From NCBI GenBank assembly GCA_034006035.1, contig JAVETN010000011.1, positions 1-64,000 on the forward strand: a DNA stretch of 64,000 bases, in the 5' to 3' direction. The stretch's first letter is position 1. Every line of letters starts with the position of its first letter. Under the pieces are notes generated by a model. It saw only the letters and a program-made list of their open reading frames with translations. It was not told the DNA's origin and did no database searches. The translations under genes were made by a program, and so were the position numbers. This document shows, piece after piece, positions 1,187 to 62,994 of the stretch. Source of the stretch: Desulforegulaceae bacterium. GTDB taxonomy: Bacteria > Desulfobacterota > Desulfobacteria > Desulfobacterales > JACKCP01.

Positions 1187-2420
1187 AAATAAGTTCCTCC
1201 TCTGTATTTTTAAGCTCAGGTATTTTAAATTTAAAACATGAGCCTTTGTTTTCTTCGCTTTCTACCCAGATTTCCCCTTTATGAGCTTTAATTGCTAATT
1301 TGCAAAAGGACAGCCCAAGTCCTGAAGATGATTTGTTTGATTCAAGGTGAAAGTATTTATCAAAAATAAGTTTTTGATTTTCAAGGGGGATTCCTTTACC
1401 CAGATCTTTTACATAAAAAACAATACAATTATCTTCGATTTCAAATCCTGTTGAAATTGATTTAGAGCCGCTGTGAGTTATTGCATTCATAATAATGTTT
1501 TGAAGAACTCTTAAAAGAACTCCTCTGTCACCCCAGATAAAAGGTCCATCATTTTCCTTGTATTGGTGAGTGATTTCAAGTCCTTTGTTTTTTGCAACGG
1601 CAAAAAGTCTTGATGAAGCTTCAGTTAAAATTTCGGGCACAGAAATTTTTTCCAATATCAGATTAAGAGAGCCATCCTGAAGTCTTGTTATATCCAGCAG
1701 ATTTGAAATCATTGTATACATAGTGTCACAGCCGGACTGGGCAGCTTTTACATACTCAATGTTTTCATTATCAATGGTGTAGGACATTATATCAAGATTT
1801 GCAATAACTTCAGAAACAGGGCCTTTAAGATCATGAACCATCATTTGAAAGAATTCAGTCCTCATTTTTTCAAGCTTTTTAAGCTTTATGTTTTTTATTG
1901 AAAGTGTTTTTTGATTTTCTTCAAGCTTTTGAGTCAGTCGAAGGGTTTCTATCTGGCCGATTATTATTCCTGCAAGATCAAGAAGGATTTCCCTTTCTTC
2001 GTCTGAAAAACAGTCCTGACCTTTTTTTCCAGTAAGGTTGATTACTCCTATAACTTCATCCTTAATTATTATGGGGATTACAAGAAATGCCCTTGTCTTG
2101 TATTTCCCTTTTTGCCGACGTTCACCATCAAAGTCTTGAGGGTCATTTACATATAAAGGTTTTTTGTTTTTAAAAACCCAGCATGAGGGGCTTTCAGAGT
2201 TAAGCGGTTGTTTAATTCCTACAAGTTCAGGGTTTGTTGAAGCTGCAACTTCCATGCTCAGCCTGTTTTTTTTAATCATTATTGAGCCTTTGGAAGTTTC
2301 TGTTATAAGGGTGAGAAAGTAAATTAGCTCCATTAATTTTTCTGAATTTGACTTAGATTGATTGTTTGAGATTTTAATTATCTTTTTTATGAAACCCAAA
2401 ATATCCATAGACTTGCTCAT
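1170..2420 (-). CDS. GAF-domain sensor histidine kinase
   Basis: A soluble sensor kinase of about 416 residues without membrane segments. The first half is a GAF domain (PSCWVFKNKKPLYVND is typical), followed by a short coiled coil, the H-box HDLKGPVSEV with the phospho-accepting His, and an HATPase_c domain with N-box (NAITHSG), G1 (DLGKGIP) and G2 (GLGLSF). The ATG at 2420 is preferred over 2432 because GGAG lies six bases before it. It sits 63 bases downstream of a response regulator gene on the same strand and probably phosphorylates that protein. Its signal is unknown; GAF suggests a small cytosolic ligand or redox cue. Confidence 0.85.
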   Translation of the reverse strand: MSKSMDILGFIKKIIKISNNQSKSNSEKLMELIYFLTLITETSKGSIMIKKNRLSMEVAASTNPELVGIKQPLNSESPSCWVFKNKKPLYVNDPQDFDGERRQKGKYKTRAFLVIPIIIKDEVIGVINLTGKKGQDCFSDEEREILLDLAGIIIGQIETLRLTQKLEENQKTLSIKNIKLKKLEKMRTEFFQMMVHDLKGPVSEVIANLDIMSYTIDNENIEYVKAAQSGCDTMYTMISNLLDITRLQDGSLNLILEKISVPEILTEASSRLFAVAKNKGLEITHQYKENDGPFIWGDRGVLLRVLQNIIMNAITHSGSKSISTGFEIEDNCIVFYVKDLGKGIPLENQKLIFDKYFHLESNKSSSGLGLSFCKLAIKAHKGEIWVESEENKGSCFKFKIPELKNTEEELIFEIKD

Positions 2421-2483
2421 CTTAATCTCCATTGGAAGAGTTCTTTATAAAAGTTTTAAGTTCTGTTTATTGGCAGTCAATTG

Positions 2484-3635
2484 TTAAGTATTAAGTTTAA
2501 GAAGTTTTTTTACCTCTTCATTTGTGGGCATGATTTTTTCAAGCTTTCTTAATATTTCATCAGCTCTTAAGGCCTGTTTCATTGCCATGAATGATTTGGC
2601 AAGCATTAAATTTGCTTCAAAATTTTCAGGTTCAGTCTTGGTGATTTTTGTACAATAATCAATTACTTTTCCAGGCTGTTTAAAGTTGTTGTAAATTCTT
2701 GCAATGGTAAGCAAAACATCTGTTCGTTCTGGATAAAAAGTTTGAAGCTCTTCAAGAAGTTCCAGGGAATCTTCATAATGTTTGTGTTTAAGGTATAAAA
2801 AAGCAACTTCTTCTTTTTGAACAAGAGGGTCTTCTGCAAGTTCAAACACTTTGTTAAACAAAGGTTTTGCTTTTGCTATATTGTTGTTGGCAAGAAGAAT
2901 TTTTGCAAAATTAAATGCTCTTTCATAATGTCTTGGGCTTATTTTCATAGCTCTTTCAAAGAACTTGCCAGCTTTTTCAATATCATTTTTTTTAAGATAG
3001 ATTTCCCCAAGATGGTGGTATGCATAAACATCAAGCCTGTTCATTTTTGCTGCTCTTAAAAAGCATTTTTCAGCATTTGTCATTTCGTTTTTTTTATAAA
3101 AAAGAGAACCTAAAACCCTTATTGGACGAGAAGATTTTGGTTCAGCAATTATTGCTTTTTTGGAAATTTCTATGGCTTTGTCCAATTCTCCTGACTCGGC
3201 AAGCTCTCTTGCTTCTTTGAGTAAAACCATGAATTTTGGGGGGGTATTGTATTTTTCTATTACTCCCTTAATTTTGTTTTCAAGGGATTTGACTGTGAGC
3301 GGTTTTAAAATATAGGCGTCAATGTCTGATTCTGCAGCTTCTGCAACAATTTCTTTGTTTGATTCGGCTGTGATCATAATCACAGGCATATCCCTGAGTT
3401 TTTTGTTGTTTCTTATATGCTCCAAAACTTCTATGCCTTTCATTTTTGGCATATTCCAGTCTATTATTGCAAGATCAAAGTCTCTTTGGCTCATGGCTTT
3501 AAGTGCAAGCTCTCCGCTATAACACAGGGTGAATGAACTTCCGTATTTTAGGATTTTCATCATATTACGGATTGATTTGCACATGTTTTCCATATCATCT
3601 ACAATAAGAACGTTCATTTTGTTGATGTCTATCAT
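2484..3635 (-). CDS. Response regulator: receiver domain fused to TPR repeats
   Basis: Residues about 5-125 form an intact receiver: the acidic pair in LIVDD, the phospho-acceptor Asp in LAIIDWNMPK, Thr in VIMITAES and Lys in AYILKPL are all present. The rest is made of tetratricopeptide repeats (for example CFLRAAKMNRLDVYAYHHLG and FFERAMKISPRHYERAFNFA), with no DNA-binding or enzymatic output domain. Phosphorylation therefore probably controls a protein-protein interaction. It is the first gene of the kinase-thioesterase operon and diverges from comF with a 79-base gap. Partner and process unknown. Confidence 0.8.
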   Translation of the reverse strand: MIDINKMNVLIVDDMENMCKSIRNMMKILKYGSSFTLCYSGELALKAMSQRDFDLAIIDWNMPKMKGIEVLEHIRNNKKLRDMPVIMITAESNKEIVAEAAESDIDAYILKPLTVKSLENKIKGVIEKYNTPPKFMVLLKEARELAESGELDKAIEISKKAIIAEPKSSRPIRVLGSLFYKKNEMTNAEKCFLRAAKMNRLDVYAYHHLGEIYLKKNDIEKAGKFFERAMKISPRHYERAFNFAKILLANNNIAKAKPLFNKVFELAEDPLVQKEEVAFLYLKHKHYEDSLELLEELQTFYPERTDVLLTIARIYNNFKQPGKVIDYCTKITKTEPENFEANLMLAKSFMAMKQALRADEILRKLEKIMPTNEEVKKLLKLNT

Positions 3636-3714
3636 TTGTGTGGAGCTCCGTAGTGTAAATGGTTGCAGTTTTATTATTTAAATTGGCATTATATACCAAA
3701 AAAAAGAACAGACC

Positions 3715-4428
3715 ATGAAAAATCTGATTTATCCTGATATTTGCTTTATTTGTAAAAATTTTTTTGAATACAAAGGGTTAAAAGAAGAAAAGTTTAAATT
3801 TCCAGGAGATTTTAACGAAGTGTTTTGCGATGTTTTATGTCCTGAGTGTTTAAGCAAAGTTTTTTTTGTTCAGGGTAGAATAAAAGATTTGTTTGCTGAT
3901 AAAAAGTTTTTATCTTCAATTAATTCACCTTTTATTTATCAGGATTCTATTGTGGACATAGTACATTTGTTAAAGTACAATTATAAAACATTTTTTGCTG
4001 AAAAAATTTCATGGTTCATTTTAAAAACATATCTGGAATTTTATAAAAATCAGGTCCATGATCTGGCGGTGTTTGTTCCCATGCATAAAAAAGCTTTTAG
4101 GAAAAGGGGATTTAATCAAACCTATCTGATTGCTATAGAAACACAAAATCTTGCAAAAAAATACAGAGTTGATTTTCCTGAAATTAATAAAAATGTTTTA
4201 ATAAAAATAAAAAACACAAGATCCCAGGCAGGATTAAAAAAAGAGGAAAGAAGAAAAAATATTTCCAATGTTTTTAAAGTAAAAAATTCTTTTCTTGTTA
4301 AGGGAAAAAAAGTCTTAATCATAGATGATGTTTGTACAACAGGCTCTACACTTGAAGAATGTGCAAAAACACTTGTAAAGTCCGGTGCCCAATGCGTGGA
4401 TGCAATAACCTTTGCAAGAGCTGTTTAA
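3715..4428 (+). CDS. comF: ComF family phosphoribosyltransferase-like protein
   Basis: The protein of 237 residues begins with a Cys-rich zinc-finger-like segment (CFICKNFF near the start and CDVLCPECL later) and ends with a type I phosphoribosyltransferase domain whose PRPP loop is VLIIDDVCTTGSTLEECA. RKRGFNQ is another ComF family signature. ComF proteins are linked to DNA uptake in Haemophilus and Bacillus and to recombination or replication restart; an enzymatic product is not established. Downstream genes are on the same strand with short gaps, so it may lead an operon to selD. Confidence 0.85.
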   Translation: MKNLIYPDICFICKNFFEYKGLKEEKFKFPGDFNEVFCDVLCPECLSKVFFVQGRIKDLFADKKFLSSINSPFIYQDSIVDIVHLLKYNYKTFFAEKISWFILKTYLEFYKNQVHDLAVFVPMHKKAFRKRGFNQTYLIAIETQNLAKKYRVDFPEINKNVLIKIKNTRSQAGLKKEERRKNISNVFKVKNSFLVKGKKVLIIDDVCTTGSTLEECAKTLVKSGAQCVDAITFARAV

Positions 4429-4445
4429 TATAAGGAGTAAATAAA

Positions 4446-5237
4446 ATGCTTGAATTAAATCAGGTTAAATCAGGGTTTGTTCAGTTTGATGTTGTTTACG
4501 GAAATTATGAACACAATTTTAGTGAAGTTGAAAAAGGTCTTGAAATCTTAAATAAAAAAGAAACAGAGCTTGTAGTTCTTCCTGAAATGTGGAGCTGTGG
4601 ATTTGATTATAATTCTCTTAGGGAGCATTGTCTTAAAACTCCGGAAATAATTGAAAGACTATGCGGTTTTGCAAAAAAATATTCCATGGTTATTACTGGA
4701 TCCCTTCCTGAACTGGATGAAAATAAAATTTACAACACAGCCTATGTGATTGAAAAAGATGGAACAATAAACAGCTCATATAGAAAGGTTCATCTTTTTT
4801 CACTTGCAGGAGAGCATAAGAGATTTTCTAGAGGTGAAAAGGCAGTGGTTGCACAGACTTCAATAGGAAAGCTTGGTCTTTTAATCTGCTATGATTTAAG
4901 GTTTCCTGAGCTTTCAAGAACAATTACTGATATGGATGCTGATATAATTGCTGTAAGTGCTCAATGGCCTCTTGCCAGGCAGTCTCACTGGGAAATTCTT
5001 CTCCAGGCCAGAGCAATTGAAAACCAGTTGTTTATCATAGGATGTAATAGAACAGGAAGTGATACCAGGGAATATGGTGGAGGTTCTTTGATTGTTTCTC
5101 CTAAAGGCAGGCTTTTGTACAAAGCAGAAAACAAATTTGAGGCAGGTTTTGCAAAGCTTGAATTTATGGAAATGATAGAGTACAGATCCCAGATCCCTTC
5201 TCTTGAAGAAAGAGTGCCAGAAGCTTATAAATCCTGA
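4446..5237 (+). CDS. Carbon-nitrogen hydrolase (nitrilase superfamily, omega-amidase-like)
   Basis: The Glu-Lys-Cys triad of the nitrilase superfamily is visible: Glu in VVLPEMWSCGF, Lys in SYRKVHLFS and Cys in GLLICYDLRFPELSR. The length of 263 residues and the wording of these motifs fit the omega-amidase/YafV branch, which deaminates alpha-ketoglutaramate or similar amides left by transaminases. No signal peptide is present, so it is cytosolic. It lies 17 bases after comF and 14 before pgeF. The exact amide substrate is an inference. Confidence 0.85.
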   Translation: MLELNQVKSGFVQFDVVYGNYEHNFSEVEKGLEILNKKETELVVLPEMWSCGFDYNSLREHCLKTPEIIERLCGFAKKYSMVITGSLPELDENKIYNTAYVIEKDGTINSSYRKVHLFSLAGEHKRFSRGEKAVVAQTSIGKLGLLICYDLRFPELSRTITDMDADIIAVSAQWPLARQSHWEILLQARAIENQLFIIGCNRTGSDTREYGGGSLIVSPKGRLLYKAENKFEAGFAKLEFMEMIEYRSQIPSLEERVPEAYKS

Positions 5238-6018: not shown

Positions 6019-6282
6019 ATGCATAAAATGATTTTTGTATTAAAAAATTTTTTATTTATTTTTCACCTTGGTTTGGGTACAAGGCACTTTGGAGTAAATA
6101 ACAAGCTTTGGTCAAAAGACAGTTCTATTTTTTCTGTTCCCTTTTATAAGGGTATATTAACTTTTCCAGGAAGAATTAGAATGATGAAAAAAAGGGCTTT
6201 TATGGGTTTTATGCCATTTAATGAGGCAAAAAGGCTTTTTCCTTTATATGCAAAAAAAAATTATAGGAACGATTATAAATGA
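6019..6282 (+). CDS. Unknown 87-residue basic protein translationally coupled to selD
   Basis: I do not recognise this protein. It is basic and aromatic-rich, with a hydrophobic N-terminal stretch (MIFVLKNFLFIFHLGLG) and a conserved-looking middle (KGILTFPGRIRMMKKRAFMG). Its TGA overlaps the ATG of selD (ATGA at 6279-6282), which argues that it is translated and that selD translation depends on it. The gap to pgeF is 14 bases. It could be a small partner of selenium metabolism or a leader-like gene; nothing in the sequence decides this. Confidence 0.55.
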   Translation: MHKMIFVLKNFLFIFHLGLGTRHFGVNNKLWSKDSSIFSVPFYKGILTFPGRIRMMKKRAFMGFMPFNEAKRLFPLYAKKNYRNDYK

Positions 6283-7340
6283 GTGGTTGTAAATCTTATA
6301 AAAATCCTCCAAGGCTTACTGAAACAGTAAAAGCTTCGGGCTGAGCGGCTAAAATAGGGCCGGAGGTTCTGGCCGAGATAGTCAAAGGGTTTCCCAAAAC
6401 TAATAATAAAAATGTTATTGCAGGCTTTGAAAACTCTGAAGATGCTGGTGTTTATAAGATTTCTGATAAGTTTGCTCTTGTTCAGACCCTGGATTTTTTG
6501 ACTCCTATAGTAGATGATCCCTTTGTTTTTGGACAGATTGCAGCGGCAAATTCTTTGAGTGATGTTTATGCAATGGGAGGAAAGCCTCTTACTGCAATGA
6601 ATATTGTGTGTTTTCCTTCTTCAATTTATCCTCCTGATGTTTTAAAAGAAGTTCTTGATGGAGGCAGAAGTAAAATTGATGAATCTGGGGCAGTTCTTCT
6701 TGGAGGCCATAGTGTTGAAGACGATGAATTTAAATATGGTCTTTCTGTTACAGGTACAATTGATCCAAAAAATGTAAAAAGAAATTCTGATTCAACTAAA
6801 GGCCAGGATATAATTTTAACCAAAGCTCTTGGAACCGGAATAATTGCAACAGCTTTAAAAGGCGGAGTAGCTGATGAACTGTCAATAAATAAAATGATTG
6901 AAGTTATGATCTGTCTTAATAAATTTATAATTGAAATTATTGAAAATTATGAAATCGGCGGAGTTACAGATGTTACAGGTTTTGGGCTTGGAGGTCACCT
7001 TATGGAAATGGCTGTTGCCTCCCAAAAAAAAGTTTTTCTTTATTCAGAAAAACTTCCATTGCTGCCTATGGCCTTAGATTATGCAGAAATGGGACTGATT
7101 CCTGCAGGAGCATATAGAAACAGGAAGTATTGCAAGGACCATCTTCTGATTAAATCAAAAATAAATAAAGCTCTTGAAGATATAATTTTTGATCCCCAGA
7201 CTTCAGGAGGGCTTTTAGTTACTTGTGATAAAAAGTTTTCTAAAGATATTTTGGGAAAAATACGAAATTCAAATGTTAGGGCTGAAATTATCGGTGAAGT
7301 TGTGGATGACGATAAAAACGGTATTGTTGAGGTTTTTTAA
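6279..7340 (+). CDS. selD: Selenide, water dikinase (selenophosphate synthetase), selenocysteine-containing
   Basis: SelD makes selenophosphate from selenide and ATP, the donor for selenocysteine tRNA. Starting at the ATG overlapping the previous gene, codon 22 is TGA (6342-6344) within KASGUAAKIG, exactly where SelD has its catalytic Cys or Sec, with the essential Lys three residues later. The frame then runs uninterrupted into QTLDFLTPIVDDPF, the AIRS-type core (GGHSVED, TDVTGFGLGGHL) and DPQTSGGLL. The total of 353 residues is the usual length. A hairpin with a GU-containing loop just after the TGA fits a bacterial SECIS. A conventional start at 6498 would lose the active site. A functional Sec-insertion machinery must therefore exist in this genome. 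Confidence 0.93.
6342..6378 (+). promoter_or_regulatory. Selenocysteine TGA codon and bacterial SECIS hairpin in selD
   Basis: The TGA at 6342-6344 is followed 13 bases later by a six-pair stem, GGCCGG (6358-6363) with CTGGCC (6369-6374), one pair being G-U, closing a five-base loop AGGTT. Bacterial SECIS elements sit within about 40 bases after the UGA and expose G-U in the loop for SelB; this one matches in position and loop. Folding was done by eye. Confidence 0.8.
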
Positions 7341-7421: not shown

Positions 7422-7634
7422 ATGGGTCAAATGAAGTGGTTTAAAGAGATTTCCTTGTTTGGAAGTGTGGGGCTTAGTTTTGCTTTATCCATATTTATAG
7501 GACTCTTTTTTGGGATTTGGCTTGACAAAGTTTTCTCTTTGTCTCCTATTTGTACCTTTGCAGGACTTTTTTTAGGAATATGTGCTGGATACAATGGCAT
7601 TATTAAATTGATTAAAAGGATAAATAAACTCTGA
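7422..7634 (+). CDS. atpZ: AtpZ-type FO-associated small membrane protein
   Basis: A 70-residue protein with two membrane segments separated by a short polar loop (IWLDKVFSLSP). Size, layout and the GxxxGxWLD pattern match AtpZ, the small companion of AtpI encoded at the start of many F-type ATP synthase operons. AtpZ/AtpI have been connected with Mg2+/Ca2+ supply and with c-ring assembly. Its stop overlaps the first base of the next gene, so the two are coupled. Confidence 0.8.
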   Translation: MGQMKWFKEISLFGSVGLSFALSIFIGLFFGIWLDKVFSLSPICTFAGLFLGICAGYNGIIKLIKRINKL

Positions 7635-8038
7635 TGAGCAACTCTATGGACAAAGTTCCCCAGGTAAGAATAATAAAATTTGTTACAATTTCCAACTGGG
7701 TTCTTCTTCTTGTTTTCAGTTTGGCTTCATTCCCTTTAAAATCGTATAATTTTACCTCGGGAATAATTCTTGGAGGACTTATAGTATGTGTAAATTTTCA
7801 TCTCCTTTCCAGGACTTTAAAAAAAGCTTTTGTTCCAGAAAAGCTTAAAAGTCATCAAAGCGTAATAGTAAAGTATTATATCCGCTTATTCATAAGCGGG
7901 GTGATTATATTTTTATTGCTGGCAAACAATATTGTTGCTCCACCAGGTCTTATTCTTGGTGTATCTGTTGTGGTTGCAAGTTTTTTTCTTGCCAGTATTC
8001 TTGAAATTAAGAAAATAATTTTTAAGGAGGCTGTGTAA
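7634..8038 (+). CDS. atpI: ATP synthase protein I (AtpI-like)
   Basis: A 134-residue integral membrane protein with four predicted helices, the pattern of ATP synthase subunit I. AtpI acts as a chaperone for c-ring assembly. It lies between atpZ (one-base overlap) and atpB (two-base gap), which is the best support because AtpI sequences are poorly conserved. Confidence 0.78.
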   Translation: MSNSMDKVPQVRIIKFVTISNWVLLLVFSLASFPLKSYNFTSGIILGGLIVCVNFHLLSRTLKKAFVPEKLKSHQSVIVKYYIRLFISGVIIFLLLANNIVAPPGLILGVSVVVASFFLASILEIKKIIFKEAV

Positions 8039-8040
8039 GA

Positions 8041-8736
8041 ATGGAACATCCATATTTGTTTTTGGTAAATTTTTTTGAAATTATAGGGCTGGGGGATTTT
8101 GCCCATGCCAACATCCACGTTATTTATACTTGGTTTATAATGCTTCTTCTTATAGGGCTTGGCTACCTTGGAGCAAGAAATGTTCAAATGATTCCTGGTA
8201 AAGCTCAGAATGTTTTTGAAGCTATTATTTCAGAGATTGAAAATTTTATGGTTGATACCGCAGGTGAAGAAGGAAGATGGTTTTTCCCAATTGTAGCCAC
8301 TCTTTTTGTTTATATTTTTATATGCAACCTTTTTGGTCTTATCCCAGGTTTTTTTCCGCCCACTGCAAGTCTTAATACAACTGCATCATGTGCCCTTGTA
8401 GTTTTTTTTATGACACATTATATAGGAATCAAGTATCATGGTATTAAGTATGTAAATCATTTTACAGGGCCTGTATGGTGGCTTATCCCAATTATTATGC
8501 CCATTGAAATAATTGGTCATCTTGCCAGGGTATTGTCTCTTTCCTTTCGTCTTTTCGGTAATATGATGGGACATGAGCTTGTTGTAACTATTCTTCTTAC
8601 ACTTGCAGGGCTTTATCTTGCTCCATTGCCCATAATGGCTCTTGGAATTTTTATTGCCTTTGTTCAGGCTTTTATCTTTTTTCTTTTAGCTGTTATGTAT
8701 TTTGCAGGTGCCATGGAAGTGGAAGAAAGTCATTAA
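8041..8736 (+). CDS. atpB: F-type ATP synthase subunit a
   Basis: Subunit a forms the ion half-channels of the FO motor. The 231-residue protein has the usual membrane helices and the key region HLARVLSLSFRLFGNMMGHE, containing the essential stator Arg (SLSFRLFGN), followed by a last helix rich in aromatic residues (FVQAFIFFLLAVMYFAGAME). An AAGGAGG ribosome site precedes the ATG. The F1 genes are not in this window, so the FO sector is encoded separately here, as is common in Desulfobacterota. Confidence 0.95.
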   Translation: MEHPYLFLVNFFEIIGLGDFAHANIHVIYTWFIMLLLIGLGYLGARNVQMIPGKAQNVFEAIISEIENFMVDTAGEEGRWFFPIVATLFVYIFICNLFGLIPGFFPPTASLNTTASCALVVFFMTHYIGIKYHGIKYVNHFTGPVWWLIPIIMPIEIIGHLARVLSLSFRLFGNMMGHELVVTILLTLAGLYLAPLPIMALGIFIAFVQAFIFFLLAVMYFAGAMEVEESH

Positions 8737-8820
8737 TTTTGGAAGCGTAATCAGTTTTATATATTTTCGGGTAATTTGTGAAGAAGCGTAATTAATTAAC
8801 TTTTTAAGGAGGATTTTTTA

Positions 8821-9099
8821 ATGGAAACACAGGCACTTAGTTTTTTTATCGCATCGGTTATAGGAGCCAGCTTTGGTCTTGCAATTGCAGCAGCATTTTG
8901 CGGATTAAGCCAGGGTATGGGTCTTAAAGCAGCTGTTGAAGGTATCGCACGTAACCCTGAGTCTTCAGGTAAGGTTACTGTTACCTTGCTTATCGGTCTT
9001 GCGATGATTGAATCACTTTGTATTTATGCCCTTGTTATTTCTCTTATCCTTATTTATGCACACCCTCAGGCAGAAGTAATTGCAGCTCTTCTTGGGTAA
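8821..9099 (+). CDS. atpE: F-type ATP synthase subunit c
   Basis: A 92-residue hairpin of two membrane helices with the polar loop ARNPE, the standard c subunit. The ion-binding carboxylate is Glu64 in IGLAMIESLCIYALV. Gln31 in helix 1 and Ser65 after the Glu align with two of the Na+ ligands of Ilyobacter c subunits, while the following Thr is Leu66 here. Proton versus Na+ use is therefore open but leans to Na+. A strong AAGGAGG site fits high expression, and a terminator follows. Confidence 0.95.
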   Translation: METQALSFFIASVIGASFGLAIAAAFCGLSQGMGLKAAVEGIARNPESSGKVTVTLLIGLAMIESLCIYALVISLILIYAHPQAEVIAALLG

Positions 9100-40390: not shown

Positions 40391-41197
40391 ATGTACAAAA
40401 GAGCTTTTCGCCGGTTTTTCTTTTTTACGATTTTTTTTATTTTTTCAGTTTTTTTATCAAATCTTTATGCCGAGAACAAATTAAAGTTTAGCTGTTCTGC
40501 CCAGATAGCTGAAGCCCTTGGCAAAGATGTCCTTGAAATTTTGAAAGACAAAAGAGGAATAGTTTTTGACTTGAGAATAGTTTCTTCTGCTACTGCCTTA
40601 AACAGGCTTGAGAACGGCTTTTCAGAAATAGCTGCAGTTACCCTGCCCATTTCTTTTGAAATGCTGGAAAAAGGATATGTTTCAATACCTTTTTGTAAAG
40701 ATCCTCTTGTTATAATAGTCAATAAATCTTGTCCTGCTGACTCGGTTAAATCAGTTCAGGTTAGAAAGATTTTTTCAGGCAATATTTCAAACTGGAAAGA
40801 ACTGGGCGGTGATGATTTTGAAATTACAAAAATTATCCCCTGCAAGGACACAGGTGCTTTCAAAAACTTTGAAAGACTTTTTATGGGTTTGAAGCCGGTT
40901 GCCTATGATTTTATGAGCTATTCTTCAGTTGATACAATCAAAGGTGTTGGCTCAATTGAGGGAGGCATCTCTTTTATCTCCCATGGAGCCGCTGTAAAAT
41001 CAGATAAAATTAAAATCCTTAATATAGATAAAAAGTCAGCCTTGAGTGGTAAATATGATTATTTTCAGACTTTTACCTTTGTAACAAAGGGTAGGCCTTC
41101 CGAAGCCTCAAAGGAACTTATTGATGTGGCTCTTTCTAAATCAGGGCAGGAAATTATGAAGCAAAAAGGGATGGTTCCAATTTTTACAGGCCAATAA
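40391..41197 (+). CDS. Periplasmic phosphate-type substrate-binding protein
   Basis: An N-terminal signal sequence (FFFFTIFFIFSVFLSNLYAE) precedes a PstS-like domain: SSATALNRLENGFSEIAAV, IVNKSCPADSVKSVQVRKIF, SGNISNWKELGG and KDTGAFKNFERLF are hallmarks of the PBP-like domain of phosphate ABC systems. The usual TGSGT phosphate loop is not obvious, and no permease genes adjoin, so the ligand may not be phosphate. A strong AAGGAG site precedes ATG. Confidence 0.75.
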   Translation: MYKRAFRRFFFFTIFFIFSVFLSNLYAENKLKFSCSAQIAEALGKDVLEILKDKRGIVFDLRIVSSATALNRLENGFSEIAAVTLPISFEMLEKGYVSIPFCKDPLVIIVNKSCPADSVKSVQVRKIFSGNISNWKELGGDDFEITKIIPCKDTGAFKNFERLFMGLKPVAYDFMSYSSVDTIKGVGSIEGGISFISHGAAVKSDKIKILNIDKKSALSGKYDYFQTFTFVTKGRPSEASKELIDVALSKSGQEIMKQKGMVPIFTGQ

Positions 41198-41213
41198 ACA
41201 TAAGGGAATGAAT

Positions 41214-41795
41214 ATGAAAGTAAATTTAATATTATTGGCTGTTTTTGTGCTTATCTTTTCAGGATGTGCTTCTTTTACAACAGCTGCCTGGCCTCCTGTT
41301 GAAAGAGAAGTTGTTGGTGAAACCACAATTGTTGATGAAAAATCCAGTTATGATTATAGTCTTGAAACCAGGGATAAACGTTTTTTTGTTGTTGGAGTGC
41401 CTTATTGTCTTGAAAAGGAGTCTGTTTATAAGGTCAGTCAAAAACAGCATAGAGGAATTGTTTTCATTGTAATAGAAACTCCTATCTGGGGCCTTGGACT
41501 GGCGGACTGGGTGTTATCTTATATGATTTCTGAAAACAGTTTGAAAAAAGAACTTCTGGGATATAAACCCACAGGAATGAAAAAAAAGTGCGAAAACCAA
41601 ATTGAAGTCTTTCCTGCCCAAGGGGAAATAATTATCCAAAACTCCAATTCAGGGGAAATTTTTTGGACTTTAACCGATGAAAATGGTGAGTTTTTTCTTG
41701 ATACAATTATTGGAGAATATAGCGGGAGGAGTTCCTGGAATGTTTTTTTCAATCTTAATGATGAAATTCGATATCTTACAAGTTTTTGGTGGTAG
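41214..41795 (+). CDS. Lipoprotein of unknown function
   Basis: The N-terminus has a lipoprotein signal with lipobox FSGC (Cys after VLIFSG). The mature 170 residues contain a hydrophobic stretch (GIVFIVIETPIWGLGLADW) and a C-terminal beta-rich part (GEIIIQNSNSGEIFWTLTDE). I recognise no family. ATG 41214 is used since AAGGGA lies six bases before it; 41208 is an alternative two codons upstream. It is 16 bases from the binding-protein gene. Confidence 0.65.
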   Translation: MKVNLILLAVFVLIFSGCASFTTAAWPPVEREVVGETTIVDEKSSYDYSLETRDKRFFVVGVPYCLEKESVYKVSQKQHRGIVFIVIETPIWGLGLADWVLSYMISENSLKKELLGYKPTGMKKKCENQIEVFPAQGEIIIQNSNSGEIFWTLTDENGEFFLDTIIGEYSGRSSWNVFFNLNDEIRYLTSFWW

Positions 41796-42258: not shown

Positions 42259-42684
42259 ATGCAGGACTCTAATTTGTATTTATCTTCAGATAACGGAATG
42301 AAAAGGGAAGAATTTTTTATTGAAAGAGTCAAGCTCCTTATTGTTATGAGTAAAGCCTTTATCAAAGGTTATCCTCTTGACGGTTACAGAAAAGAAGCTG
42401 TGCTGAACAATGCTGAGCAGGTTTTTTTTGAAACAGCTGACTGGGGCGGCCAATATTTGAATGTAAGGGAAAAGGATTTATATATAAAAGGGCTCAAACC
42501 GGATAATTACTTTTATCAGCGAGTAAAGCTCCTTGCTCTTATGGCGAAAAGTTTTGCTGAAGGTAATCCCACTGGATATTTCAGGGTTAAAGCCGCTGAA
42601 GATACAATCGAGGAAATAGAAAAGGCTCTGAAACTGAATCAGGATGAAGATTTGCTGGACTGTTTGTCATTCAAGGTAGCCTGA
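42259..42684 (+). CDS. Unknown protein with an internal duplication
   Basis: 141 residues made of two related helical units: residues 19-48 (FIERVKLLIVMSKAFIKGYP) and 84-113 (FYQRVKLLALMAKSFAEGNP), each continuing into a Gly-Tyr-x-x-x-A(A/V) helix. No signal peptide or known domain. A TTGACA at 42066-42071 upstream may belong to a promoter, with a poor -10. It is followed after 15 bases by a degenerate receiver gene, suggesting a shared role. Confidence 0.7.
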   Translation: MQDSNLYLSSDNGMKREEFFIERVKLLIVMSKAFIKGYPLDGYRKEAVLNNAEQVFFETADWGGQYLNVREKDLYIKGLKPDNYFYQRVKLLALMAKSFAEGNPTGYFRVKAAEDTIEEIEKALKLNQDEDLLDCLSFKVA

Positions 42685-42699
42685 CGGAGAAAGTTGCGG

Positions 42700-43068
42700 A
42701 TGGAAAATGTAAAGATCATGGTTGTGGAAAACAATCCTATGGTTAATTCTCTGATAAAAGATGTGATGATGTTTTGTGTCAATAGGGAGATAATGTCATT
42801 TTCTAGTGATGATGAAGCAATAAGATATATGCAAAGCTCCGGAATTGTCCCAGACCTTGTTATTTCCAGGTATAAAAATCAAGGGGTGAGTCCGGGAAAA
42901 ATTGTAGGTTATATAAAAGCCAAAAATAAAAAATCGATTTTTGTTTTTTCATCTGATGCTGAAAATGATAAGGAAAGAGTACAAAAAGATGGTGGCGATG
43001 CTTTTTTGTCCATTCCTTTTTCTATTTCAGATCTTTTTAAAATAGTTGATGATTTTGTTGTTGGCTGA
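42700..43068 (+). CDS. Degenerate (pseudo-)receiver domain protein
   Basis: A single-domain CheY-like fold of 122 residues. The acidic pair is changed (VVENNPMV), the phospho-acceptor Asp is replaced in PDLVISRYKNQ, the Thr/Ser is retained (FVFSSDAE) and the Lys of the KPF motif is Ile in LSIPFSI. It cannot be phosphorylated in the usual way and probably works as a constitutive binding module. ATG 42700 follows GGAGAAAG-type sequence. Neighbours are the duplicated protein and a lipoprotein. Confidence 0.7.
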   Translation: MENVKIMVVENNPMVNSLIKDVMMFCVNREIMSFSSDDEAIRYMQSSGIVPDLVISRYKNQGVSPGKIVGYIKAKNKKSIFVFSSDAENDKERVQKDGGDAFLSIPFSISDLFKIVDDFVVG

Positions 43069-61692: not shown

Positions 61693-62253
61693 ATGGAAAG
61701 AGGCAAAATTTTTGTAATTTCAGCACCTTCTGGTGCAGGTAAATCCAGTCTTTGCAATTATCTTTTAAAAGAGATTAAAGATCTTTGTTTTTCTGTTTCA
61801 TACACAACCCGTGAACCAAGAAAAGGTGAAATTGATGGAAAAGATTATTTGTTTACAGATAAAAAAACTTTTGAGTCCTGGATAAAAGAAGACAAGTTTG
61901 CTGAATATGCTCTTGTTTATGGAAACTACTATGGTACCTCAAAGGATTATCTTTATAAATCAATTCAGGCTGGAAAAAATATTCTTTTGGAAATAGATAT
62001 TCAGGGAGCAAAAGCAATTAAAAAAAAGTTTAATCCTGCTGTTTTAATTTTTATCAATCCTCCTTCCATTGAAGAGCTTGGAAAAAGACTTGAAAAAAGG
62101 GGGACTGACAGTAAAGAGATAATTAAAAAAAGACTTGTTGCCGCTGAAACTGAAATTAAGGCTTCAGAAATCTTTGACCATATAATTGTAAATGATGATT
62201 TTAAAAAAGCTTCAAATGAACTTAAAAATTTAATTGAAAAAGAAATTTCCTGA
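61693..62253 (+). CDS. gmk: Guanylate kinase
   Basis: Phosphorylates GMP. The P-loop ISAPSGAGKSSLCNYLL, the GMP-binding SVSYTTREPRKGEIDGKDY and YGTSKDYLY, and LLEIDIQGAKAIKKK are all typical. 186 residues. Three bases after remA, in the conserved order. Confidence 0.95.
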   Translation: MERGKIFVISAPSGAGKSSLCNYLLKEIKDLCFSVSYTTREPRKGEIDGKDYLFTDKKTFESWIKEDKFAEYALVYGNYYGTSKDYLYKSIQAGKNILLEIDIQGAKAIKKKFNPAVLIFINPPSIEELGKRLEKRGTDSKEIIKKRLVAAETEIKASEIFDHIIVNDDFKKASNELKNLIEKEIS

Positions 62254-62262
62254 AGGCGGAAT

Positions 62263-62994
62263 ATGTCAAAAACAGAAATTCTATTTGGTAATCATAGTGT
62301 AATTTCAGCTGTAAAAGCAGGTAAAAGGAAAATAAATAAGATTTATTTAACTGAAAAAAACAGTTTTTCAGATGAAATTAGACAAGAAGCAGAAAAAAGA
62401 AAAATAAAGATTGTTCCAACAGATAAGGAAAAAATTTCAGAGCTTTCAAAGGCTAAAAACCATCAGGGAATTGCTGCAGAGGCAACTATGATTCCTTTTT
62501 ATGATTTTAATGAATTTTTAAATTCCAATAAGTTTAAAAACCCTTTTGCAGTTATTTTAGATAACCTTGAGGACCCTTTGAATCTTGGTTCAATAGCACG
62601 TTCAGCCTTGTGCCTTGGTGCTGATGTCCTTATAATACCCAAAGACAGATCAGTTCGTCCTACTCCCTTTGCTTCAAAAGTTTCTGCAGGAGCCCTGGAG
62701 TATATTCCCCTTATTGTCCAGACAAATATTGTAAATTCAATAAAAGATCTTAAAGCTGCCGGTTTTTGGATCGGCGGTCTTGATGGAAGCGGGAAAGATA
62801 TAATTGAAAAGTCTAGTCTAAGCTCGCCTTTTGGGCTTGTTGTTGGAAGTGAAGGTAAGGGAATTCGACCTCTTGTTAAAAAAAACCTTGATTTTGTTTT
62901 TAAAATTGAACAAAAAGGGCCGGTTACCTCACTTAATGCATCTTCTGCAGCAGCTATTGGGATTTATGAGTGTATAAAAAAAATAAAAAATTAG
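62263..62994 (+). CDS. rlmB: 23S rRNA (guanosine-2'-O-) methyltransferase RlmB/TrmH family
   Basis: An N-terminal SpoU substrate-binding domain (LFGNHSVISAVKAGKRKINK) and a SPOUT knot with VILDNLEDPLNLGSIARSA, LVVGSEGKGIRPLVKK and VTSLNASSAAAIGIYECI. RlmB methylates G2251; paralogues act on tRNA, so the exact target is inferred. 243 residues. Confidence 0.9.
   Translation: MSKTEILFGNHSVISAVKAGKRKINKIYLTEKNSFSDEIRQEAEKRKIKIVPTDKEKISELSKAKNHQGIAAEATMIPFYDFNEFLNSNKFKNPFAVILDNLEDPLNLGSIARSALCLGADVLIIPKDRSVRPTPFASKVSAGALEYIPLIVQTNIVNSIKDLKAAGFWIGGLDGSGKDIIEKSSLSSPFGLVVGSEGKGIRPLVKKNLDFVFKIEQKGPVTSLNASSAAAIGIYECIKKIKN

Follow-up and report, generated by a model that had tools for sequence, protein, structure and literature searches.

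The question raised by this locus is whether a TGA codon inside a selD gene ends translation or is read as selenocysteine (Sec). In the window, that is, the whole stretch of 64,000 nucleotides that was analysed, the selD frame contains this TGA as its sole in-frame stop before the end, and the preliminary description, which had placed an in-frame TGA at 6342 with SelD sequence on both of its sides, was right in both respects. The protein matches the NCBIfam equivalog TIGR00476 with 358.7 bits over residues 12–319 (curated cut-off 125) and PRK00943 with 321.4 bits (cut-off 299), and its AIRS (PF00586) and AIRS_C (PF02769) domains both exceed their cut-offs. The best solved relative is 2yye (E 2e-63), in whose alignment residue 22, encoded by the TGA, falls on Cys and residue 25 falls on Lys; the Cys of nine Cys-type SelD genes also aligns with the TGA, which agrees with the catalytic Cys/Sec position that had been claimed for it. 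The positions of Cys/Sec22 and Lys25 are presumably the catalytic ones in SelD. Judged from its sequence, the frame is a complete SelD. The coordinates of the features are collected in Table 1.

Table 1. Features of the selD locus, in positions of the window.
Feature	Positions	Strand	Remarks
selD (selenide, water dikinase/selenophosphate synthetase)	6279–7340	+	353 aa including Sec22 as predicted; ATG start; stop codon 7338–7340 included
TGA (UGA), predicted to be read as Sec	6342–6344	+	Catalytic Cys/Sec position (KASG-U-AAKIG); same column as the Cys of 2yye and of nine Cys-type SelD genes
Truncated ORF from a standard caller	6498–7340	+	TTG start; without the active site
Putative bacterial SECIS core hairpin	6358–6374	+	7-bp stem 6358–6364/6368–6374; GGU apical loop 6365–6367
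Candidate longer fold	6347–6383	+	Five more pairs under an internal loop beneath the core hairpin; minimum-energy and centroid structure of 6345–6384, −15.5 kcal/mol

Ahead of selD lies a small ORF of 87 residues (6019–6282, +), whose stop shares four bases (ATGA) with the selD start ATG, and for which searches of Pfam and NCBIfam gave no match. On the other side, an ATP synthase F0 cluster (7422–9099, +) follows selD directly; it comprises PF09527 (ATPase_gene1) and the subunits I, A and C of ATP synthase.

When ORFs are found mechanically (table 11, with ATG, GTG or TTG as starts), the gene is reported to begin at the TTG and the active site is lost, as had been foreseen. This report is what speaks for taking the TGA as a real stop, either in a pseudogene or through a sequencing error, or for a restart at the TTG that yields a shorter protein in which the active site is missing. 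Such an explanation is nevertheless very improbable, since the selD frame is otherwise intact and the same TGA stands at the exact codon in all 101 distinct related loci, which come from many genomes. These remained of 110 loci after duplicates were removed by a 150-nt key; the 110 consisted of the 30 best matches of a same-order search and 80 others, so that the set, which includes the window locus and holds best matches only, is biased to close relatives. As the TGA occurs in all 101 loci, a slip of this assembly is very unlikely.

The wider searches give the same picture. SelD matches were found in 89 of the 96 genomes of the same-order search, and among the matches listed, every one with E ≤1e-36 that reaches residue 22 reports a TGA inside; two strong matches without it start past that residue (query 45–347 and 138–344). 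In the phylum sample, 255 of 297 genomes match SelD at 1e-60, and all the matches listed report a TGA except one, from genome G221, where no stop is reported and TGC stands at the site. This gene and 11 others from plasmids served for comparison, and at the Sec column the 12 comparison genes have nine Cys codons and two TGA codons, while one is not covered there. The gene of G221 (G221:C4:99085–100401) is thus a Cys-type SelD of the same phylum; its peptide closely resembles those of the Sec types, a 5-bp stem is retained at the place of the SECIS, and it possibly reflects a recent Sec-to-Cys change.

The genome as a whole (2.64 Mb in 31 contigs, 97.7% complete) also bears on the question. The preliminary description had made its reading depend on selA, selB and selC, and all three are present outside the window: selA with 524.6 bits, selB with 365.2 bits (cut-off 242.25) and the tRNA-Sec gene selC with 81.1 bits (gathering score 47), which ARAGORN calls tRNA-SeC with anticodon tca (UCA). 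In a search of the genome for a second SelD, only that of the window was found. Both results speak against a real stop or a restart, because the Sec machinery would then be without a source of selenophosphate. It could also be supposed that the UGA is decoded as Trp, Gly or Cys, through a changed code or plain readthrough, a supposition in whose favour nothing was found and which is less probable still: ordinary genes of the window end in TGA and the neighbours are compact under table 11, the genome has a tRNA-Sec with the UCA anticodon, and the homologues without TGA carry Cys at the site (nine of nine such controls). Pyrrolysine use, which PMC8318568 brings up as dual code expansion, was rejected: the PylS model scored 24.6 bits, its cut-off being 178.15. 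In addition, a SelU/YbbB selenouridine synthase is encoded at G000:C5:83475–84374 (330 bits, cut-off 219.75).

It is almost certain, on the sequence evidence, that the UGA at codon 22 of selD is read as Sec by way of a downstream hairpin. Folding of the RNA past the TGA gave a hairpin 13 nt from the UGA to the stem, the distance claimed beforehand, and 20 nt from the UGA to the loop. According to section 5 of PMC13188914, a bSECIS has a loop of 3–9 nt with G in its first two positions, a stem of 4–16 bp, a UGA–loop distance of 16–37 nt and an energy of ≤−7.5 kcal/mol; the selD hairpin, with its GGU loop, 7 bp, 20 nt and −11.6 kcal/mol for the core, lies within these limits. This loose rule is passed by 100 of 101 Sec loci and by eight of nine Cys-type controls as well, and for that reason it is not evidence by itself. 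Under a stricter rule (stem ≥5 bp, G in the first two loop positions, spacing 16–22), 95 of the 101 Sec loci and three of the nine Cys controls pass, and the two TGA-type SelDs from plasmids (L136 and L138) fail with stems of only 3 bp.

The hairpin folds better than chance, and how much better depends on the control used. Against 200 dinucleotide shuffles, z is −1.36 for the 51 nt of 6340–6390 (14 shuffles as good), −2.42 for 6345–6384 (1 as good) and −2.50 for 6355–6377, the hairpin flanked by 3 nt at either end (5 as good). When the same 16 residues are recoded synonymously, the mean is −6.3 kcal/mol (sd 2.3) against the −15.5 observed, and the observed energy is reached by 0.04% of 5000 codon-usage-weighted recodings (P 0.0004) and by 1% of 300 GC-weighted ones (P 0.01). 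Over the 101 Sec loci, the mean synonymous z is only −1.56, with 43 loci below P 0.05, against −0.45 for the nine Cys loci (Mann–Whitney P 0.0023). Among 99 distinct 48-mers, the stem positions pair in 88.2% of cases and in 13–56% when slid by 1–3 columns; two-sided changes of the stem number 37, where shuffles average 10.0 (sd 2.7) and 0 of 500 reach the observed number, although such counts are inflated by the relatedness of the sequences and by codon constraints, and the conserved peptide accounts for part of the conservation of the hairpin. The longer fold may also be part of the element, with weaker evidence than the core. No Rfam family matched the window at its gathering score.

Sec insertion, catalysis and the dependence of SelD on itself are what we infer from established knowledge of these families, and the process may be pictured as follows. 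The selD mRNA carries UGA at codon 22, and SelB with its Sec-tRNA(Sec) would bind the hairpin that lies inside the coding sequence just past this codon; in this way the ribosome would insert Sec at the catalytic position without stopping. SelD would then convert selenide and ATP into selenophosphate, which would be used by SelA in the synthesis of Sec-tRNA and hence for the synthesis of SelD itself, and very probably also by SelU for 2-selenouridine in tRNA.

As for the users of selenium, the molybdopterin oxidoreductase family (PF00384) was searched for in the 97.7% complete genome and not found, the same search being positive in 11 of 14 control genomes, and hence no FdhA (formate dehydrogenase alpha subunit) was found; nor did a search of the same genome find the large subunit of NiFe(Se) hydrogenase (PF00374). 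That is to say, Sec decoding persists in a genome without a detectable FdhA. Two adjacent genes on contig C2 (locus L133, G000:C2:1–12000) each contain a single in-frame TGA: a FlpD/VhuD-like protein (1612–2055, −) has it at VSG-U-HPGDC, and a HdrA-like protein of 1011 residues (2108–5143, −) has it at NDCAM-U-IISPK. This pair is likely to represent two further selenoproteins of the genome, as far as their sequences can tell. FlpD is taken by us to be equivalent to FrhD, the F420-reducing hydrogenase delta family. PMC1794560 counts HdrA and FrhD with the Sec families known from Deltaproteobacteria. According to a remark of 2006, organisms that decode Sec but lack FdhA possess a Sec-SelD and, for the most part, the selenouridine trait, and this genome is one more case of that published pattern. 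It is conceivable, and somewhat doubtful, that this small genome, in which neither FdhA nor NiFe hydrogenase is detectable, retains the Sec system to serve a set that is minimal and closed, namely SelD and the HdrA/FlpD pair; the Sec of SelD itself would lock the trait in place, and selenophosphate would also feed tRNA selenouridine. If it were so, the genome would be a natural test of the idea that Sec decoding is not easily lost once SelD itself contains Sec.

In the window itself, 13 candidates with an in-frame TGA were collected, selD included, and three besides selD were compared with Pfam. The candidate at 61693–62994 was rejected as a selenoprotein: Pfam recognises a guanylate kinase followed by an in-frame SpoU methylase, and its TGA is therefore an ordinary stop. 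The other two, 42259–43068 and 41121–41795, had no Pfam match. The former (+) is made up of one ORF of 141 residues and another of 124, which share a frame and have a single TGA (42682) between them; its read-through product is without a Pfam match, and it is probably two genes.

Compared with known systems, the SelD structures 2yye, 2zod and 2zau, which we take to be from Aquifex aeolicus, share the fold family and the active-site segment (E 2e-63), whereas in the chain that was crystallised Cys occupies the Sec position of the window SelD. The Cys-type SelDs (plasmid copies of Ensifer, Caballeronia and Rhizobium, and the phylum member G221) belong to the same enzyme family, but they carry a Cys codon in the Sec column, with no UGA and no need of a SECIS, while the window SelD has UGA. 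Among the 96 genomes searched, none of the same family or genus appeared, and identity to the nearest named locus is 57%. The importance of the gene lies mostly in annotation: its arrangement is well known, ordinary gene callers tend to shorten such genes, and without Sec-aware calling the sole detected SelD of the genome would be recorded as N-terminally truncated, with its active site missing. Sec-SelD is common in Deltaproteobacteria, according to PMC1794560 and PMC8318568, and is also documented elsewhere (PMC4561486); in PMC1794560, the family table gives 38 SelD selenoproteins, and Table 3 has SelD in each of the eight deltaproteobacterial rows shown in full. Since Sec-SelD is documented, the finding is correct but ordinary, the SelD of the window being one more of a kind already known. 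With the deltaproteobacterial Sec-SelDs of Table 3, for example those of Syntrophobacter, Desulfotalea and Geobacter, it shares Sec at the active site and the same pathway, and it differs from them by organism only.
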